From Acidobacteriota bacterium (GTDB lineage: Bacteria > Acidobacteriota > Vicinamibacteria > Vicinamibacterales > SCN-69-37), in contig SYFT01000004.1 in NCBI GenBank assembly GCA_005799825.1, positions 37,363 through 101,362 of the forward strand: a DNA stretch of 64,000 nt, in the 5' to 3' direction. Below the pieces are notes generated by a model. That model saw only the letters and a list, made by a program, of their open reading frames with translations. It had not been told where the DNA came from and ran no database searches. A program made the translations under genes and the position numbers. Positions 3,408-53,512 of the stretch are shown here, piece after piece; within the stretch, counting starts at the first letter, position 1, and each line of letters starts with the position of its first letter.

Positions 3408-4774
3408 CCTGTCGTCGGCGGTGGCGGTCGCGGTGCGCAGTACTGGTCCTGGCGTGCACCGCTGGTGCGGCGATCGGCGCTGGCCCTGAGGCGCAGCGGG
3501 CGGGGGCACCCTCGCCACCGGTTCTGGCCAGGATGTGGGACGCCGAGCACGTGTCGTCGCTCGTGTCGCCCCTTGTTGACCATGCCGAGGTGAAGTCGCG
3601 CATCCAGGCGATTGCCGCGTCGGACAGCCCTGTGATCCGAGTGCGCGAGGTGGGGCGGTCCCTTGAAGGTCGTGAGGTATGGGACGTCACATTCGGCACG
3701 GGTCCCACCACAGTCCTCATGTGGTCGCAGATGCATGGCGACGAGCCGACGGCGACGTCAGCACTATTCGACATCTACGAGTACATCCGTCTGCACGAAA
3801 AGGAACCAGCCGTGCAGCAGGTGCTGTCGGCGCTGACCGTGCACACGGTGCCGATGCTCAATCCTGACGGCTCGGAGCGATTCCAGCGGCGCAACGTGCA
3901 GAGCATCGACATCAACCGCGATGCGCTGTTGCTGCAGACTCCGGAGGGGCGCCTGCTTAAGTCGCTGCGGGACGAGTTAAACCCGGCTGTGGGGTTCAAC
4001 CTCCACAATCAGAGCTGGCGCACCACGGTCGGGAAGCCGCCGAAGGGCGCGGCCATCTCGCTGCTTTCCGTGGCTTACGACGAAGAGCGCTCGGTAAGCC
4101 CTGGTCGTTTGCTGACCAAGCGCCTTGGTGCCGTGGTGCGCGATGCACTCGAGCCGTTTGCACTGGGCCGCATCGGCAAGTACGACGACAGCTTCGAGGT
4201 GCGCGCCTTCGGTGACAACCTGACGCTCTGGGGAACGCCGGTGTTGCTGGTGGAGACTGGGCCGTGGCCCGAGGTCAACCCCGATCCCATGTTGCTGCGG
4301 CTGAACTACACCGCCCTGATTCACGCGCTTCACGCGTTGGCGGATGGGTCGGTACACAAGGCCGATGCGGCCCGGTACGATTCGCTGCCGGAGAACCAGA
4401 CCGGGGGGTTCTACACAATTATTCGGAATGTATCGATCGTCACAGGCACCGGCATCCCGTCGTTTACCGGCGATGTCGGCCTTGTGGCGAATCGGCGCGT
4501 ACGCATCGAAGACGGCAAGCGAGTGCTTGTCACGCAGCATTCGATTGACGACATCGGAGATCTGCGCACGGCCGGTGGCCTGTTCGAGGTGGATGGTGCG
4601 GGCAAGGTGCTGGCGCCGCTTCGACCCGGTGCGGAGGTCGGCACCGAACTGGCCTTGCCCGCAGGTAAGTGGGATTCGACGATCGTCGTAGGCGCGCCAG
4701 CCAATGTGATGATGCTGGCGCCGTTGCCGGACGGCCGGTATCGTGTCGAGCGGGTATTTCGGGGAACAACCTGA
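3404..4774 (+). CDS. M14 family zinc carboxypeptidase, secreted
   Basis: GTGA overlap; QMHGDEPTAT (HxxE zinc motif), MLNPDGSERFQRRN, NLHNQSW, LLVETGPW. Confidence 0.85.
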   Translation: MTCRRRWRSRCAVLVLACTAGAAIGAGPEAQRAGAPSPPVLARMWDAEHVSSLVSPLVDHAEVKSRIQAIAASDSPVIRVREVGRSLEGREVWDVTFGTGPTTVLMWSQMHGDEPTATSALFDIYEYIRLHEKEPAVQQVLSALTVHTVPMLNPDGSERFQRRNVQSIDINRDALLLQTPEGRLLKSLRDELNPAVGFNLHNQSWRTTVGKPPKGAAISLLSVAYDEERSVSPGRLLTKRLGAVVRDALEPFALGRIGKYDDSFEVRAFGDNLTLWGTPVLLVETGPWPEVNPDPMLLRLNYTALIHALHALADGSVHKADAARYDSLPENQTGGFYTIIRNVSIVTGTGIPSFTGDVGLVANRRVRIEDGKRVLVTQHSIDDIGDLRTAGGLFEVDGAGKVLAPLRPGAEVGTELALPAGKWDSTIVVGAPANVMMLAPLPDGRYRVERVFRGTT

Positions 4775-4825
4775 AAAGACGTCGGGTGCCTTTCTAGAGG
4801 AAAAAGACACCCGACGTCTTTTTTT
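4774..4825 (+). terminator. Rho-independent-terminator-like hairpin after the M14 peptidase gene
   Basis: AAAAGACGTCGGGTG ... CACCCGACGTCTTTT, 15-bp perfect arms (4774-4788/4808-4822) followed by T-run; left arm begins on the stop codon. Confidence 0.7.
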
Positions 4826-18933: not shown

Positions 18934-19389
18934 CTAAGAACAGTGCCGTCGCGTCACAGCGTGGCGATGGGCGAACATCTGACGCAGCCCGAGTTTCACC
19001 GCCCAGCCGAGCAGAGCATTCATGACCGAGCCCCCAGGCAACGCGAATGTTACGCGGTCTGTGAGTCGGCAGCGGCCGCCCTCGTCCAGAAATTCATGGC
19101 GGTGGTTCCAGAGCGCGAAGGGGCCGCTGGCTTGCTCATCCACGAATAGTGCGTCCTGTACAAACGACGTATGATGCGCCACCCAGGTGATTGGGCCAAT
19201 TCTCAGAACGACCTGGGCACCGGTGCGAATGCCCCCGGTTCGTGAGCTGACGCGCACAGGGGGAAACGCGGGCGACAGCAGCGCCAATGCGTCTTCCCGG
19301 TCGTGAAAGGCGAACACCACTGACACAGGCGCGTTGATCAGGCTGCTCTTCACAAAGGTTGGCACACCTGCCATGGTAGACCCATGCAC
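18934..19389 (-). CDS. SRPBCC family (polyketide cyclase/START-like) protein
   Basis: SSLINAPVSVVFAFHDREDALALLSPAFPPV...FVDEQASGPFALWNHRHEFLDEGGRCRLTDRVTFALPGG. Confidence 0.75.
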   Translation of the reverse strand: MHGSTMAGVPTFVKSSLINAPVSVVFAFHDREDALALLSPAFPPVRVSSRTGGIRTGAQVVLRIGPITWVAHHTSFVQDALFVDEQASGPFALWNHRHEFLDEGGRCRLTDRVTFALPGGSVMNALLGWAVKLGLRQMFAHRHAVTRRHCS

Positions 19390-20094
19390 ACTGCAATTGT
19401 CACCGGTGGAACAAAAGGAATTGGCTACGGCATTGCGGAGGCACTGCTTGCCGCGGGCGGCTGCGTAATGATCACTGGCAGGAATGCTGCCGGTGTGGCG
19501 GATGCTGTGGGGAGGTTGGGTGCCGGCGCCGGAAAGAGCACTCGCGTGAGCGGCCGGGCGGTGGATGTGCGCGACCGCGCGGCGGTTGACGCGATGGTTG
19601 CTGAGGCCGTCAGGCAGTTCGGTTCACTGAACACGCTCGTCAATAACGCCGGCGTCGGGCTGTTCACCGCGGTGGAGCAGACGACGGACGAAGACTGGGC
19701 CCGCGTCATCGAGACGAATCTTACGGGGGTGTTCTACTGTTCCCGAGCCGCGATCCCCGCCTTGAGGCAGGCTGGCGGCGGATGGATGATCAACATCGCG
19801 AGCCTGGCGGGCCGCAACTATTTCGCGAATGCATCGGCCTACTGCGCATCGAAGGCGGGCCTGGTGGCGTTTAGTGAGGCGCTCATGCTTGAGGTGAGAA
19901 ACGACAACATTCGGGTGAGCGTGGTGATGCCTGGCTCGGTGGCCACGGACTTCACGGGGCCGTCGGGAAAACACGACGACGAGTCGTGGAAGCTCACGCC
20001 TGCCGACATCGCCGAAGTCGTGATGGACCTGCTTCGCCACCCTTCGCGGAGCCTGCCGAGCAAGGTCGAGATCCGCCCGGCGCGGACCAAGTAG
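19384..20094 (+). CDS. Short-chain dehydrogenase/reductase
   Basis: TGGTKGIGYGIAEALLAAGG, NNAGVGLF, YCASKAGLVAFSE. Confidence 0.9.
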   Translation: MHTAIVTGGTKGIGYGIAEALLAAGGCVMITGRNAAGVADAVGRLGAGAGKSTRVSGRAVDVRDRAAVDAMVAEAVRQFGSLNTLVNNAGVGLFTAVEQTTDEDWARVIETNLTGVFYCSRAAIPALRQAGGGWMINIASLAGRNYFANASAYCASKAGLVAFSEALMLEVRNDNIRVSVVMPGSVATDFTGPSGKHDDESWKLTPADIAEVVMDLLRHPSRSLPSKVEIRPARTK

Positions 20095-20211
20095 GGGGAC
20101 GGGTGTGTTTTCCACAGAAACGCGGGAAATGGGGACAGGTCTCGGTTGAAAGGGGGGCCGAGACCTGTCCCCATTTCCCGCGTTTCTGTGGAAAATACAC
20201 CCGTCCCCCTA
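20092..20211. repeat. 120-nt near-perfect inverted repeat (54-bp arms, 12-nt loop)
   Basis: TAGGGGGACGGGTGTGTTTTCCACAGAAACGCGGGAAATGGGGACAGGTCTCGG / ttgaaagggggg / CCGAGACCTGTCCCCATTTCCCGCGTTTCTGTGGAAAATACACCCGTCCCCCTA; 53 of 54 positions pair. Confidence 0.95.
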
Positions 20212-21423
20212 GCGATGGGAAGGCCGAGGCGCCAGTGCCCAGATAAGGGCCGGCACCCAGAGGCCCAGGCCGACGATCGCGGCCAGCAGGCGTGGATCGA
20301 CATGCCACAGGTCCAGCGCCACCGCCGTCGAATACGCCACCGCCGACTGCACCAGCGCCATCACGATGAGTTCTGCCGAGAACACGCGGCCGCGGAACGC
20401 GTCGGGCACGCGCATTTGCAGCAACACATTGCTCGCCACCCACAACATCGACCCGAAAACATGTGCGGCAATGACAATAGCCGCGGCGAACCAGATCGTC
20501 GGCACAATTGCCAGCGCCGCGTAACAGGCGCCGGCCACGAAATACGCCGGCGCTATCAGGCGGATCAGATTGCCCTGCCTCGCCGCAATCAGACTGATGA
20601 TGAGTGAGCCGGCAAAGGCGCCAATGCCTCGCGCGGCGAACAAGATGCCAATGCCCGCATCGCTCGAGTCACCGATGCGAAAAATCCTGTCGCCAAAGAC
20701 CGTGAGCAGCAGGAGCGCGCCGCCCACAATGGCCCACCCGCCCTTGATGAGTGCGATTCGAGCCACATCGCCGTGGCGACGCATGTAGGACAGGCCATCC
20801 ATAACCCCCTGAAGGCCGAGCGTCGCCCGTTCGGACGCCTCCCTGGCAGGCACACGCATCCGCCAGAGGAACACGGCCGATGTGAAGAACGACAGCGCGT
20901 TGATGACAAAGGCCGCGTCGCGGCCGAGCAGCACGGTCACGCCGCCGCCGAGCGACGCGCCTATCGCCAGCATCGCCGACCAGGTGCCCGTCGAGATGGC
21001 GTTGGCCGCCACAAGCTGCTCGCGCGGCACGATCGACGGCACGGTGGCCGAACGCGCCGGCTCGAAGAAACCCGAACACGCCACCATCACGCCGGTCACG
21101 ACGTACGCGAGCCACACAGTGTCGGAAGACCGGACCAGGATTAGGCCGAGCACCGCCGCGCCTCTGACGAGGTCTGCAGCGATCATGATGCGCCTCCGAT
21201 CGAAGCGGTCCACAATCACTCCGGAGATGGGTCCTACAATCGCGACTGGCAGCAACTGCATCACCATCATGCCGGCCACGGCCGTGGCCGAACCCGTGAG
21301 TTCGAAGAGCAGCGCGTAGAGGGCGACGACGTTGAACCAGTCACCGAGCTGGCTGACGATTTGTCCGAACCAGAGCAGGCGGAAGTTGCGATTGTCCCTG
21401 ACGAGGGTGAGCAGAGTGCGCAT
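20209..21423 (-). CDS. MFS transporter
   Basis: NFRLLWFGQIVSQLGDWFNVVALYALLFELTGSATAVAGMMVMQLLP; multi-TM. Confidence 0.88.
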   Translation of the reverse strand: MRTLLTLVRDNRNFRLLWFGQIVSQLGDWFNVVALYALLFELTGSATAVAGMMVMQLLPVAIVGPISGVIVDRFDRRRIMIAADLVRGAAVLGLILVRSSDTVWLAYVVTGVMVACSGFFEPARSATVPSIVPREQLVAANAISTGTWSAMLAIGASLGGGVTVLLGRDAAFVINALSFFTSAVFLWRMRVPAREASERATLGLQGVMDGLSYMRRHGDVARIALIKGGWAIVGGALLLLTVFGDRIFRIGDSSDAGIGILFAARGIGAFAGSLIISLIAARQGNLIRLIAPAYFVAGACYAALAIVPTIWFAAAIVIAAHVFGSMLWVASNVLLQMRVPDAFRGRVFSAELIVMALVQSAVAYSTAVALDLWHVDPRLLAAIVGLGLWVPALIWALAPRPSHR

Positions 21424-27015: not shown

Positions 27016-28029
27016 ATGTCGACGCCGATCCTCGAGTTCGTGCTCAAGAACTATAAAAATTTCAACTCCCGGGCCACGCGCGATGCCCTGATAGCGTATT
27101 GGGCCCATGTTGACAACGGCGGGCGGATGTTCTGGGCCATGGCGGGCGCGATGTCTTCAGCACAATTAGGTATCACGCTGGCTCCGGCTATACGAGAGGG
27201 ACTCGTGCATGGTCTTTCGGTGACCGGCGCGAATCTTGAAGAGTCGCTATTCCGCCTTGTAGCCCACGACAGCTACAAGGACTTTCCGGAGTACCGCTAT
27301 TTCACGAAGCAGGATGACACCCGCATCCTCAATGAGCGCATGCGTCGCGTGACCGACACGAGTATTCCGGAAGACGAAGCATTTCGCGCTGTCGAGAAGT
27401 TCGTCGTGCCGATGTGGAAGCGCGCAAGCGAGAAGGGCGATCGACGCTTCTGGCACGAGTACTTCTACGAGCTGGTGCTGACGATCGGTGATGATCTTCA
27501 CGAGGGCAATCCAGAGGAATCGTGGCTGCTCGCAGCGGCCCAGGCCAACCTGCCCATTGTGGTGCCAGGATATGAAGACTCCACGTTTGGCAATATCTTC
27601 GCCGCGCATGTCAAGGCCGGCGACTGCCACGCGAGCATCGCGAAGTCGGGCATTGAGTACATGGGCGCATTCTACGATCAGTACGGCGCGTTATCTGAAG
27701 GCGCCGGCGTCGGGTTTTTTCAGATTGGTGGCGGGATTGCGGGCGACTTTCCGATTTGCGTGGTGCCGTCACTGAAGTACGACATGGAAAGGGAGGCCAA
27801 GCCCTGGACGTACTTCTGCCAGATCTCAGATTCGACCACGTCGTACGGATCGTATTCTGGCGCCACTCCGAATGAAAAGATCACCTGGGACAAACTGACC
27901 GAAGACACCCCGATGTTCGTCATCGAGTCGGACGCAACAATTGTCGTACCCCTCATGCTGAGCGCGCTGCTCGAGTGCAAGCGCCACCCGACCGAGGCCC
28001 GGGCGCTGATGGAGTCTGCCGCCCGCTAG
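27016..28029 (+). CDS. Deoxyhypusine synthase family protein (possible homospermidine-synthase-like function)
   Basis: GGRMFWAMAGAMSSAQLGITLAPAIREGLVHGLSVTGANLEESLFRLV; ITWDKL region corresponding to catalytic-Lys SWGKI of DHS. Confidence 0.8.
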   Translation: MSTPILEFVLKNYKNFNSRATRDALIAYWAHVDNGGRMFWAMAGAMSSAQLGITLAPAIREGLVHGLSVTGANLEESLFRLVAHDSYKDFPEYRYFTKQDDTRILNERMRRVTDTSIPEDEAFRAVEKFVVPMWKRASEKGDRRFWHEYFYELVLTIGDDLHEGNPEESWLLAAAQANLPIVVPGYEDSTFGNIFAAHVKAGDCHASIAKSGIEYMGAFYDQYGALSEGAGVGFFQIGGGIAGDFPICVVPSLKYDMEREAKPWTYFCQISDSTTSYGSYSGATPNEKITWDKLTEDTPMFVIESDATIVVPLMLSALLECKRHPTEARALMESAAR

Positions 28030-28186
28030 TGGCCTGTCCTGGTCATGTGTGCCGTGCGTTTCCACTGGGGCATCCCGCCTGGCGGCGTTGCTCGTCGCTC
28101 AAATACAGTGAGTATTCTCACTCCTCGCGCCTGGCCATCCAGGCGCCGCAACGGAAAATCACGGCACACATGACCAGGACAGGCCA
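28030..28186. repeat. Intergenic inverted-repeat element, 157 nt, 27-bp perfect terminal arms
   Basis: TGGCCTGTCCTGGTCATGTGTGCCGTG (28030-28056) / CACGGCACACATGACCAGGACAGGCCA (28160-28186), with internal secondary dyads. Confidence 0.93.
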
Positions 28187-28189
28187 GTA

Positions 28190-29509
28190 GTGATGGACAC
28201 TCTCACCGGCTGGGGCCGGTTGCCTGAGCCCGGGCGCGAGTTGCTCGACGAAGACTTCGAGACGCTCACTCGCGGCGCGGTGTTGTCGCGCGGACTCGGC
28301 CGTTCCTACGGCGACTCGTCGCTGCCGGCAAACGCCTCAGACCGGGTTGCCAATTCCCGATTTGCGAATCGCATCATCGCCTTCGATCAAAGCACAGGGG
28401 TATTGCGCGCCGAGGCGGGGCTTACGCTGGTCAATCTGGTGCGCCTCATGTTGCCGCGAGGATGGTTCCCACCCGTGGTGCCAGGAACAAAGTTCGTGAC
28501 GCTTGGCGGAATGGTGGCCAGTGACGTGCACGGCAAGAATCACCACCGCGAAGGTTGTTTCGGCGCGCACGTGCGCGCCCTCCGCGTGCGGCTGGCGGAC
28601 GACCGGATCGTGGAATGTTCCCGCGAATCAGATGCGGACTTGTTCGACGGCTGTCTCGGCGGGATGGGGCTGCTCGGACACATCCTCGAGGTGGAGTTCG
28701 CCATGCACCGCATTCCATCGCCGTGGATCTGGATGGAGCGCGAGCGGGTCTCTGATATTCAGGCATTTCTCGAGAGCATTGCGACTGCGGCTCCGCAGTG
28801 GCCCATGACCATGGGCTGGATTGATTGCGTCAAACGCGGCAAGGGCATGGGCCGCGGGCTGCTGATGGCCGGCCGATGGGCGACGACCGAGGAAGCTCCC
28901 ACTCGGCATCCGGGTTCGCCACACGAGATCACCATGCCCATGGAACTTCCCAACTGGGCGCTCAATCGCACCACCACAGGTTTCTTTAATGCCGGCATCT
29001 TCTGGGGCCACGTCCGCAACCGCGCCTCGGCTACGATGGCACCCGAACGGTTCTTCTTCCCGCTTGACGCCATCCTCGAATGGAATCGTGCGTATGGGCC
29101 ACGTGGGTTCACGCAGTATCAGTGTGTGGTACCGCGGGCGGCCGGACCTCCGGCGGTGTACGAATTCATGAAACGGCTGACGACGCTTGGTGCGGCGTCG
29201 CCGCTCTGCGTCATCAAGGACTGCGGGCCGGAAGGCCGCGGCGTCTTGTCGTTCCCCCTGGAAGGGACGTCGATTGCCGTGGACATGCCGGTGTCGGCCG
29301 ATATTCAGCGCGTGGTGAATGGCCTGAACGAGTTCATTATCTCGGTGGGGGGCCGTGTGTATTTGACGAAAGACCGCTTCACAACGGCCGAACACTTTCG
29401 GGCAATGGAGCCGCGTCTGCCGCAGTTCCAGGCACTTAGGGCCAAATGGGATCCCACCGGGCGGTTGCGAAGCGCGCAGTCGCGCAGGCTGTTTGGAGAC
29501 AAGGCATGA
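28190..29509 (+). CDS. FAD-binding oxidoreductase, DprE1-like
   Basis: SRGLGRSYGDSSLPANA, GMVASDVHGKNHHREGCFGAHV, GGMGLLGHILEVEF, C-terminal GGRVYLTKDRF. Confidence 0.85.
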   Translation: MMDTLTGWGRLPEPGRELLDEDFETLTRGAVLSRGLGRSYGDSSLPANASDRVANSRFANRIIAFDQSTGVLRAEAGLTLVNLVRLMLPRGWFPPVVPGTKFVTLGGMVASDVHGKNHHREGCFGAHVRALRVRLADDRIVECSRESDADLFDGCLGGMGLLGHILEVEFAMHRIPSPWIWMERERVSDIQAFLESIATAAPQWPMTMGWIDCVKRGKGMGRGLLMAGRWATTEEAPTRHPGSPHEITMPMELPNWALNRTTTGFFNAGIFWGHVRNRASATMAPERFFFPLDAILEWNRAYGPRGFTQYQCVVPRAAGPPAVYEFMKRLTTLGAASPLCVIKDCGPEGRGVLSFPLEGTSIAVDMPVSADIQRVVNGLNEFIISVGGRVYLTKDRFTTAEHFRAMEPRLPQFQALRAKWDPTGRLRSAQSRRLFGDKA

Positions 29510-33897: not shown

Positions 33898-35266
33898 CAA
33901 GTGCGACGTCGTGGTCGTTGGCGCGGGCTTCGCGGGCCTGAGCGCGGCTGTGCGCCTTGCTGTGCGAGGCAAGGCTGTGACGGTCGTCGAAGAAGCGCCC
34001 AGGCTGGGCGGTCGTGCGACGGCATTCACCCACCGCGAGAGCGGGCAACGGCTCGACAACGGCCAGCACGCGCTCTTCGGCTGTTATCGCGAGACCTACG
34101 ACTTCCTGCGCGTCATCGGCACGGCCGATCTCGCGCCCCTCGACCCTACGCTTCGCTTGACGATGGCGGATGCGAGGGGACGGACGTCTACGCTGACCTG
34201 CCCCGCGTGGCCGCCGCCGTGGCATCTGGTGGGTGGCCTTCTCAAGTGGAACGCCCTGCCGTTGCGTGACCGCTTTGCCGCCACACGACTGGCGAGCCTG
34301 TTCTCGGTGGTCAGACGCGAGGGCGCCGAGGCTGCGGCCGCGCGCGTGTCACCGGACCTCACCGTCACCGACTGGCTTCGCCAACACCGCCAGCCGGCGT
34401 CGCTCTGCGAGTGGTTGTGGCATCCGCTGGCTTTCGCCGCCCTGAACCAGGATCCGGGCGTGGCCGCGGCTCGGCCGTTCGTGCGGGTTGTTGGTGAACT
34501 CTTCGGTCGCGCTCCCGGTGCGGCGTCGCTTGGGGTGCCAAGTGTGCCGCTCGATGAGTTGTACGCGGAGCCGGCCGCGAGATTCATTGAGAGTCGCGGT
34601 GGGAACGTGTTGCGTGGCACCACAGCGCTGGTGGACGTGGACCCGGTCGGGCGGGAACATCGCGTCTACGCGGGTGAGGACATTCTCTGTCCAGGCGCGG
34701 TCATCAGCGCGGTGCCGTGGCATGCGTTTGACCGCCTGTGGCGCCACGAGGTGCCGGAGCGGCTGGCTGGAATCGCCGAGGCCGCGCGTCAGATGGAGGC
34801 GGCGCCGATCGTGACGGTGAACCTGTGGTTCGACCGGCCGGTGATGACCGAGCGTCAGGTCGGGTTGGTCGGGACACAGTTTCATTGGGCGTTTCATAAA
34901 GACGTCGGCTGTCGTTTTGACGAGGGTCGACAAAAAGACACCCGACGTCTTTACTCACTCGTTGCCAGCGGCGCCGAGGGGCTGCTGCGGCAGGAAAACT
35001 ACGAACTGGCGGCGCTGGCTGAACGCGAATTACGTGCCTGTGTGCCGGACGCTGCCGCGGCAGTGTGCGAACGATCGCTTGTGGTGCGAGAATCCCGCGC
35101 GACGTTTTCACTGGCGCCCGGCGCGCCGCCCCGACCCAGCACCCAAACGCAGGTACCCGGCATATTTCTCGCGGGCGACTGGACCGACACCAGATTGCCG
35201 GGGACGATCGAAGGCGCAGTCCTGAGCGGTCATCGCGCGGCCGCCGCGGCTATGATCACTCTGTGA
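33875..35266 (+). CDS. hpnE: Hydroxysqualene dehydroxylase HpnE, carrying an in-frame palindromic insert
   Basis: VVVVGAGFAGLSAAVRLAVRGKAVTVVEEAPRLGGRATAF; GVPSVPLDELYAEPAARFIESRGG; insert DVGCRFDEGRQKDTRR coincides with palindrome 34898-34952. Confidence 0.88.
   Translation: MAEFRSTDKCDVVVVGAGFAGLSAAVRLAVRGKAVTVVEEAPRLGGRATAFTHRESGQRLDNGQHALFGCYRETYDFLRVIGTADLAPLDPTLRLTMADARGRTSTLTCPAWPPPWHLVGGLLKWNALPLRDRFAATRLASLFSVVRREGAEAAAARVSPDLTVTDWLRQHRQPASLCEWLWHPLAFAALNQDPGVAAARPFVRVVGELFGRAPGAASLGVPSVPLDELYAEPAARFIESRGGNVLRGTTALVDVDPVGREHRVYAGEDILCPGAVISAVPWHAFDRLWRHEVPERLAGIAEAARQMEAAPIVTVNLWFDRPVMTERQVGLVGTQFHWAFHKDVGCRFDEGRQKDTRRLYSLVASGAEGLLRQENYELAALAERELRACVPDAAAAVCERSLVVRESRATFSLAPGAPPRPSTQTQVPGIFLAGDWTDTRLPGTIEGAVLSGHRAAAAAMITL
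34898..34952. repeat. Imperfect inverted repeat inside hpnE, related to the hairpin at 4774-4825
   Basis: AAAGACGTCGGCTGTC...GACAAAAAGACACCCGACGTCTTT; 21 nt AAAAAGACACCCGACGTCTTT (34932-34952) identical to 4801-4821. Confidence 0.9.
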
Positions 35267-45819: not shown

Positions 45820-45895
45820 AGGGGGACGGGTGTCGATCTGTGGAAAACTTAACGTCATCAAATTGAGTTTTCCACAGATCGACACCCGTCCCCCT
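45820..45895. repeat. 76-nt inverted repeat (30-bp perfect arms, 16-nt loop)
   Basis: AGGGGGACGGGTGTCGATCTGTGGAAAACT / taacgtcatcaaattg / AGTTTTCCACAGATCGACACCCGTCCCCCT. Confidence 0.95.
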
Positions 45896-53440: not shown

Positions 53441-53441
53441 C

Positions 53442-53500
53442 GGAAAAACGATCTCTGAGGTCGTTTCCACCCGTGTGTGTACACGAAACGACCTCAGAGG
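53442..53500. repeat. Two further degenerate copies of the ACGACCTCAGAGGTCGT palindrome
   Basis: GGAAAAACGATCTCTGAGGTCGTTTCC and GTGTACACGAAACGACCTCAGAGGTTATTTTCAC, downstream of dinB-like gene. Confidence 0.8.
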
Positions 53501-53512
53501 TTATTTTCACGT

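Follow-up and report, generated by a model that had tools for sequence, protein, structure and literature searches.

A palindrome between the stop codons of two convergent acidobacterial genes, very probably a transposase-mobilised REPIN/TIR-type element

Convergent genes for an SDR family oxidoreductase and an MFS transporter are separated by a long palindrome that runs from one stop codon to the other. Very probably, this palindrome is a non-autonomous miniature element of the REPIN/TIR type that was mobilised by a transposase and inserted at the seam between the two genes. Here, "the window" is the whole 64-kb stretch of DNA that we analysed. G000 is the genome of the window, other G numbers are relatives, L numbers are loci, and C15 is a contig of G000.

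The palindrome and its neighbours

The palindrome consists of two arms of 54 nt each (20092–20145 and 20158–20211) with 98% identity, separated by a 12-nt loop, TTGAAAGGGGGG; the sole mismatch is at 20107 (G vs. A). An earlier, sequence-only reading of this DNA gave the coordinates and the stem length correctly. In a search for arms up to 300 nt apart, this was the longest inverted repeat of the window. RNA folding gave −139.4 kcal/mol (z −16.5) for the + strand and −129.6 kcal/mol (z −17.7) for the − strand, with none of 200 shuffles folding as stably. An Rfam scan of the whole window returned no match. The distance from the SDR stop to the MFS stop is 114 bp, all of it filled by the palindrome, which also includes both stop triplets; the claim that it alone forms the 3′–3′ spacer is therefore right. 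Their Pfam matches (Table 1) and their orthologues in relatives show that both genes are real.

Table 1. Features of the SDR–MFS junction and the second family copy in the window.
Feature	Position	Strand	Match or source
SDR family oxidoreductase gene, TAG stop at 20092–20094	19384–20094	+	Pfam adh_short, 2e-53
Complete palindrome (type A; REPIN/TIR-like), reaching from stop to stop	20092–20211	.	
Left outer terminal motif GGGGACGGGTGT, TAG before it	20095–20106	+	
Left-arm inner motif GGGGACAGGTCTC, matches GGGGWSAS	20131–20143	+	Consensus: PMC3733652
Loop TTGAAAGGGGGG	20146–20157	.	
Right-arm inner motif GGGGACAGGTCTC	20160–20172	−	
Right outer terminal motif GGGGACGGGTGT, TAG before it on the − strand	20197–20208	−	
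MFS transporter gene, TAG stop read as CTA at 20209–20211	20209–21423	−	Pfam MFS_3, 2e-28
Second family copy, type B, GGGGACGGGTGTCGATCTGTGGAAAACT	45820–45895	.	

A dispersed family and its transposase

The terminal 12-mer of the palindrome, GGGGACGGGTGT, occurs at 29 sites in the 2.93-Mb draft genome, as compared to a single site for a reversed-motif control. The sites are grouped at ~20 dispersed places, most of which consist of an inverted pair of motifs around a copy-specific, self-complementary interior, i.e., one hairpin. The conserved ends of the family read TAG or NAG, followed by GGGGACGGGTGT. There are two main types: type A, which includes the copy at 20092–20211, has GGGGACGGGTGTGTTTTCCACAG and then GGGGACAGGTCTC, and type B has GGGGACGGGTGTCGATCTGTGGAAAACTC. 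Across positions 13–30, the arms within one element show 87% agreement, vs. 58% between different elements, meaning that each palindrome behaves as a unit. The motif has 26 sites in G011, a member of the same genus, and 0–4 in the other members of the order that were drawn.

The genes around the copies are predictions, scored by codon usage trained on this window. On this basis, 16 of the 20 places in G000 are between predicted genes and four are inside ORFs; five of the 20 copies are positioned between divergent starts (L001, L003, L008, L010, and L012). The in-gene copies are read in frame, in genes whose names we assigned by eye: uvrC-like (L023), metH-like (L013), hutH-like (L017), and ctaD-ctaE-like (L005). 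In-frame copies are also found in genes of G011 (L149, L151, and L147). These copies encode peptides such as GVDLWK...FSTDRHPSP, and their in-frame position resembles that of intragenic REPs and Rickettsia palindromic elements (RPEs). At L151 of G011, a copy joins stretches that, again by eye, are MeaB-like and methylmalonyl-CoA epimerase-like in a single ORF. The in-gene site at L013 has different palindromes in different species of the genus (G000, G008, G013, and G010).

The genome has a sole gene for a Y1 transposase, or RAYT (REP-associated Y1 transposase), at C15:1453-2061 (PF01797). The protein is 202 aa long, and an HUH motif (NHWH) and a tyrosine motif can be recognised in its sequence. 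Its only NCBIfam match, NF047646 (REP-associated tyrosine transposase), scores 63 bits and so falls short of the cut-off (80). A profile-domain search found Y1_Tnp alone and no helix-turn-helix, and a search of solved structures with the RAYT sequence gave no match at 0.001. The Y motif, YVERNA, falls outside all subclasses tabulated in PMC6006769.

In G000, the RAYT gene is preceded by a type A half copy at a distance of ~140 bp, and a similar half copy is found upstream of the orthologues in G008 and G011; the inner motif at this position is GGGGACAG in G008 and G011, and AGGGACAG in G000. Of 76 homologous RAYT loci, 18 have GGGGWSAS upstream in forward orientation and 15 have its reverse complement downstream; the controls gave 0–2 (reversed motifs) and 0 of 72 (a distal stretch). 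Because of this enrichment and the half copies beside the orthologues, a link between the palindrome family and the RAYT is well supported, and the ~20 elements were probably copied by the transposase of their own genome. In G000, the half copy that precedes the RAYT gene (L001:1310-1342, C15) overlaps the predicted start of a neighbouring purN-like gene, the N-terminus of which would be element-encoded (MANAVENTPVPL).

The family resembles several known systems, with differences from each. The TIRs of TIRtrons and TIRYTs (Di Nocera et al. 2013, PMC3733652) are likewise long, self-complementary repeats beside a Y1 transposase gene that have the GGGGWSAS consensus (the inner motif here being GGGGACAG), a moderate copy number, and dispersed dimers; one TIRYT group is acidobacterial. 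Unlike TIRs, the family described here has an outer motif, GGGGACGG, that is one position off GGGGWSAS, and its transposase gene is adjoined by an upstream half copy only. Most TIRYTs (subclass 2.1) have a helix-turn-helix domain in the transposase. That domain is C-terminal and comes with a YIELNP-type Y motif, unlike the Y1_Tnp-only protein and YVERNA motif found here.

Similarly, REPINs (Bertels and Rainey 2011, PMC3116915) have inverted conserved ends around a variable, self-complementary spacer, form one long hairpin, have arms that match within a copy, and are linked to a RAYT. Of the features of REPINs, the present family has paired inverted ends, over-represented copies, a repeat adjoining the RAYT gene, and a mostly extragenic location. 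By contrast, its ends are not short Pseudomonas REPs, and its copies number ~20, not hundreds. GTAG REPs (PMC3733652), like the present elements, are mostly extragenic, with some in-gene copies; they are often located between convergent genes, no more than 20 bp from either 3′ end, and their termini often donate a TAG stop to the flanking ORFs. The tag here differs in being NAG, with TAG commonest. Lastly, RPEs, in the part of their description given in PMC3733652, are also palindromes inserted in frame in protein-coding genes; their sequences differ, and that part describes CGTC-tagged RPEs as having no transposase found tied to them.

Stop codons at the element ends

The same junction in relatives shows which of the two stops is older. 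G009 and G011 have the convergent SDR–MFS pair but no palindrome between the two genes: in G009 the stops are 11 bp apart, and in G011 they share an overlapping CTAG. With the element-free pair this tightly packed, the seam was already tight when the element entered it. The C-terminus of the SDR protein, VEIRP(A/S)(R/K)T(K/T/R)-stop, ends at an equal position in four relatives that lack the palindrome there (G009, G011, G013, and G007). An unchanged C-terminus next to an unrelated spacer is what the sequence-only reading itself had named as evidence against its idea; the SDR stop is therefore older than the insertion. The MFS protein is 404 aa here and in G008, 402 aa in G009, 407 aa in G011, and 401 aa in G010 and G013, and its final few residues vary among species. 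The MFS stop may thus be either ancestral or element-supplied, with the latter made possible by the frequency of TAG at the element's own end. The sequence-only reading had proposed that the element supplies both stops; this does not hold for the SDR gene, and it may hold for the MFS gene. Truncation of either protein by the element was considered and rejected on the basis of orthologue lengths; at 404 aa, as compared to 401–407 aa across the genus, the MFS protein is neither truncated nor extended.

In G008, the nearest relative, the SDR gene has lost its 3′ part, so this genome provides no clean empty site, and the relatives with an empty SDR–MFS junction have an MFS identity of only ~80%. 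We sought a target-site duplication and the exact element boundary from empty sites; neither was definable, with the relatives' spacers too diverged at most loci.

TAG is in part a property of the element end, not only of the target. Of 35 element ends in G000, 32 have A at −2 and 23 have G at −1. The TAG triplet occurs at 10 of the 35, as compared to 0.35% of triplets in the window; the idea that an inserted element could create stop codons is therefore sound. Moreover, ~6 TAG ends are not stops of predicted genes (L001, L008, L010, L013, L023, and L029), arguing that the target alone does not account for the triplet. The tag consensus is NAG, with TAG commonest: the 35 ends in G000 include ATAG seven times and GTAG once, and GTAG is found at three of 29 ends in G011. 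The left end of the element at 20092–20211 reads GTAG and the right end CTAG. TAG or TAA accounts for 9 of the 10 element-abutting stops, as compared to 32 of the 62 stops of the window (p = 0.036, Fisher test); this comparison was chosen post hoc, and we therefore do not rely on it.

Other copies also lie stop to stop between convergent genes. There is no gap on either side at L015 (TAA/TAG stops) or at L143 of G011 (TAG/TAA stops); at L014, the gaps to the two TAA stops are 0 and 4. In the relative G012, the L014 site is free of the element, and its two stops abut directly (TAA|CTA). An unrelated palindrome elsewhere in the window (53441–53512) likewise occupies the whole of a convergent spacer, reaching exactly from one predicted TGA stop to the other. 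It belongs to the AAACGACCTCTGAGGTCGTTT family, for which the genome has six motif sites.

Two further observations concern palindromes of the window. A third dispersed family, AAGACGTCGGGTGTCTTT, is present at 4774–4822 and 34897–34953, and has 36 motif sites in the genome, vs. none in the reversed control; in the L020 alignment, G008 has one AAGACGTCGGGTGTCTTT copy nested within a GGGGACGGGTGT element. In addition, 28026–28190 contains a 46-nt inverted repeat (87%) with a 73-nt spacer and no obvious relation to the GGGGACGGGTGT family.

Possible functions and proposed origin

Judging from the general function of REPs, 3′ exonucleases would be impeded by a stem of >50 bp at the end of each transcript. 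The palindrome could be a mobile element that has been domesticated as a 3′ hairpin stabilising mRNA or controlling its decay, as proposed for REPs. Its location exactly past both stops, where each transcript would carry the stem as a putative exonuclease barrier, is consistent with such a role; however, the element is not conserved at the SDR–MFS locus in relatives, and we consider this reading unlikely. A related reading starts from the observation that, in this genus, unrelated families are found repeatedly at the same convergent junctions, with their ends exactly at both stops, and proposes selection for a tail-to-tail hairpin rather than mere tolerance of insertion. If this were true, TAG-bearing ends would be kept because they safely close both frames. 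We regard such selection as rather improbable; the simplest account is that tight convergent seams are harmless targets.

The sequence-only reading expected a bidirectional terminator or a decoupling structure. In a rival reading of this kind, a bidirectional terminator or insulator would be kept by selection between the two convergent genes. The hairpin is indeed very stable on both strands, and convergent junctions in the genus often hold palindromes, sometimes different ones per species at one site. Nonetheless, the flanks of the stem (CCCCCTAGCGATGGG on one strand, CCCCCTACTTGGTCC on the other) have no T-run that would give a U-tract on either strand, and a scan for intrinsic terminators found no sites. 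Furthermore, the family is also found between divergent genes and inside ORFs, and G009 and G011 lack a hairpin at the SDR–MFS junction. For these reasons, a dedicated terminator is very unlikely; the stem may affect the 3′ ends of both mRNAs incidentally. A degenerate or attenuated integron, CRISPR, or phage attachment structure would explain the inverted symmetry alone, and has a negligible probability given the dispersed single hairpins with unique interiors, their association with a RAYT, and the lack of any Rfam match in the window.

For the preferred origin as a transposase-mobilised element, we propose the following steps: (i) the RAYT would bind a folded single strand, cleave beside the end tag, and insert the element; (ii) insertions would persist mainly where no gene is broken, which would favour a seam between two stops; (iii) with TAG so frequent at its ends, the element would close the reading frame even if it landed a few bases away, such that exact stop-to-stop placement would be tolerated, and the TAG end may be the source of the MFS stop; (iv) both mRNAs probably carry the stem at their 3′ ends, where slower 3′ exonucleases or less read-through may be an incidental effect.

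The family and its RAYT are a new system of the REPIN/TIR type, and the stop-abutting position has previously been described for such elements. The exact stop-to-stop coincidence at the SDR–MFS junction would thereby be explained by a known process, in which mobile hairpins settle between genes and sometimes lend them their stops. With a single resident RAYT, and with relatives that have empty junctions, this family in an uncultured member of the Acidobacteriota is a well-defined system in which target choice is testable.
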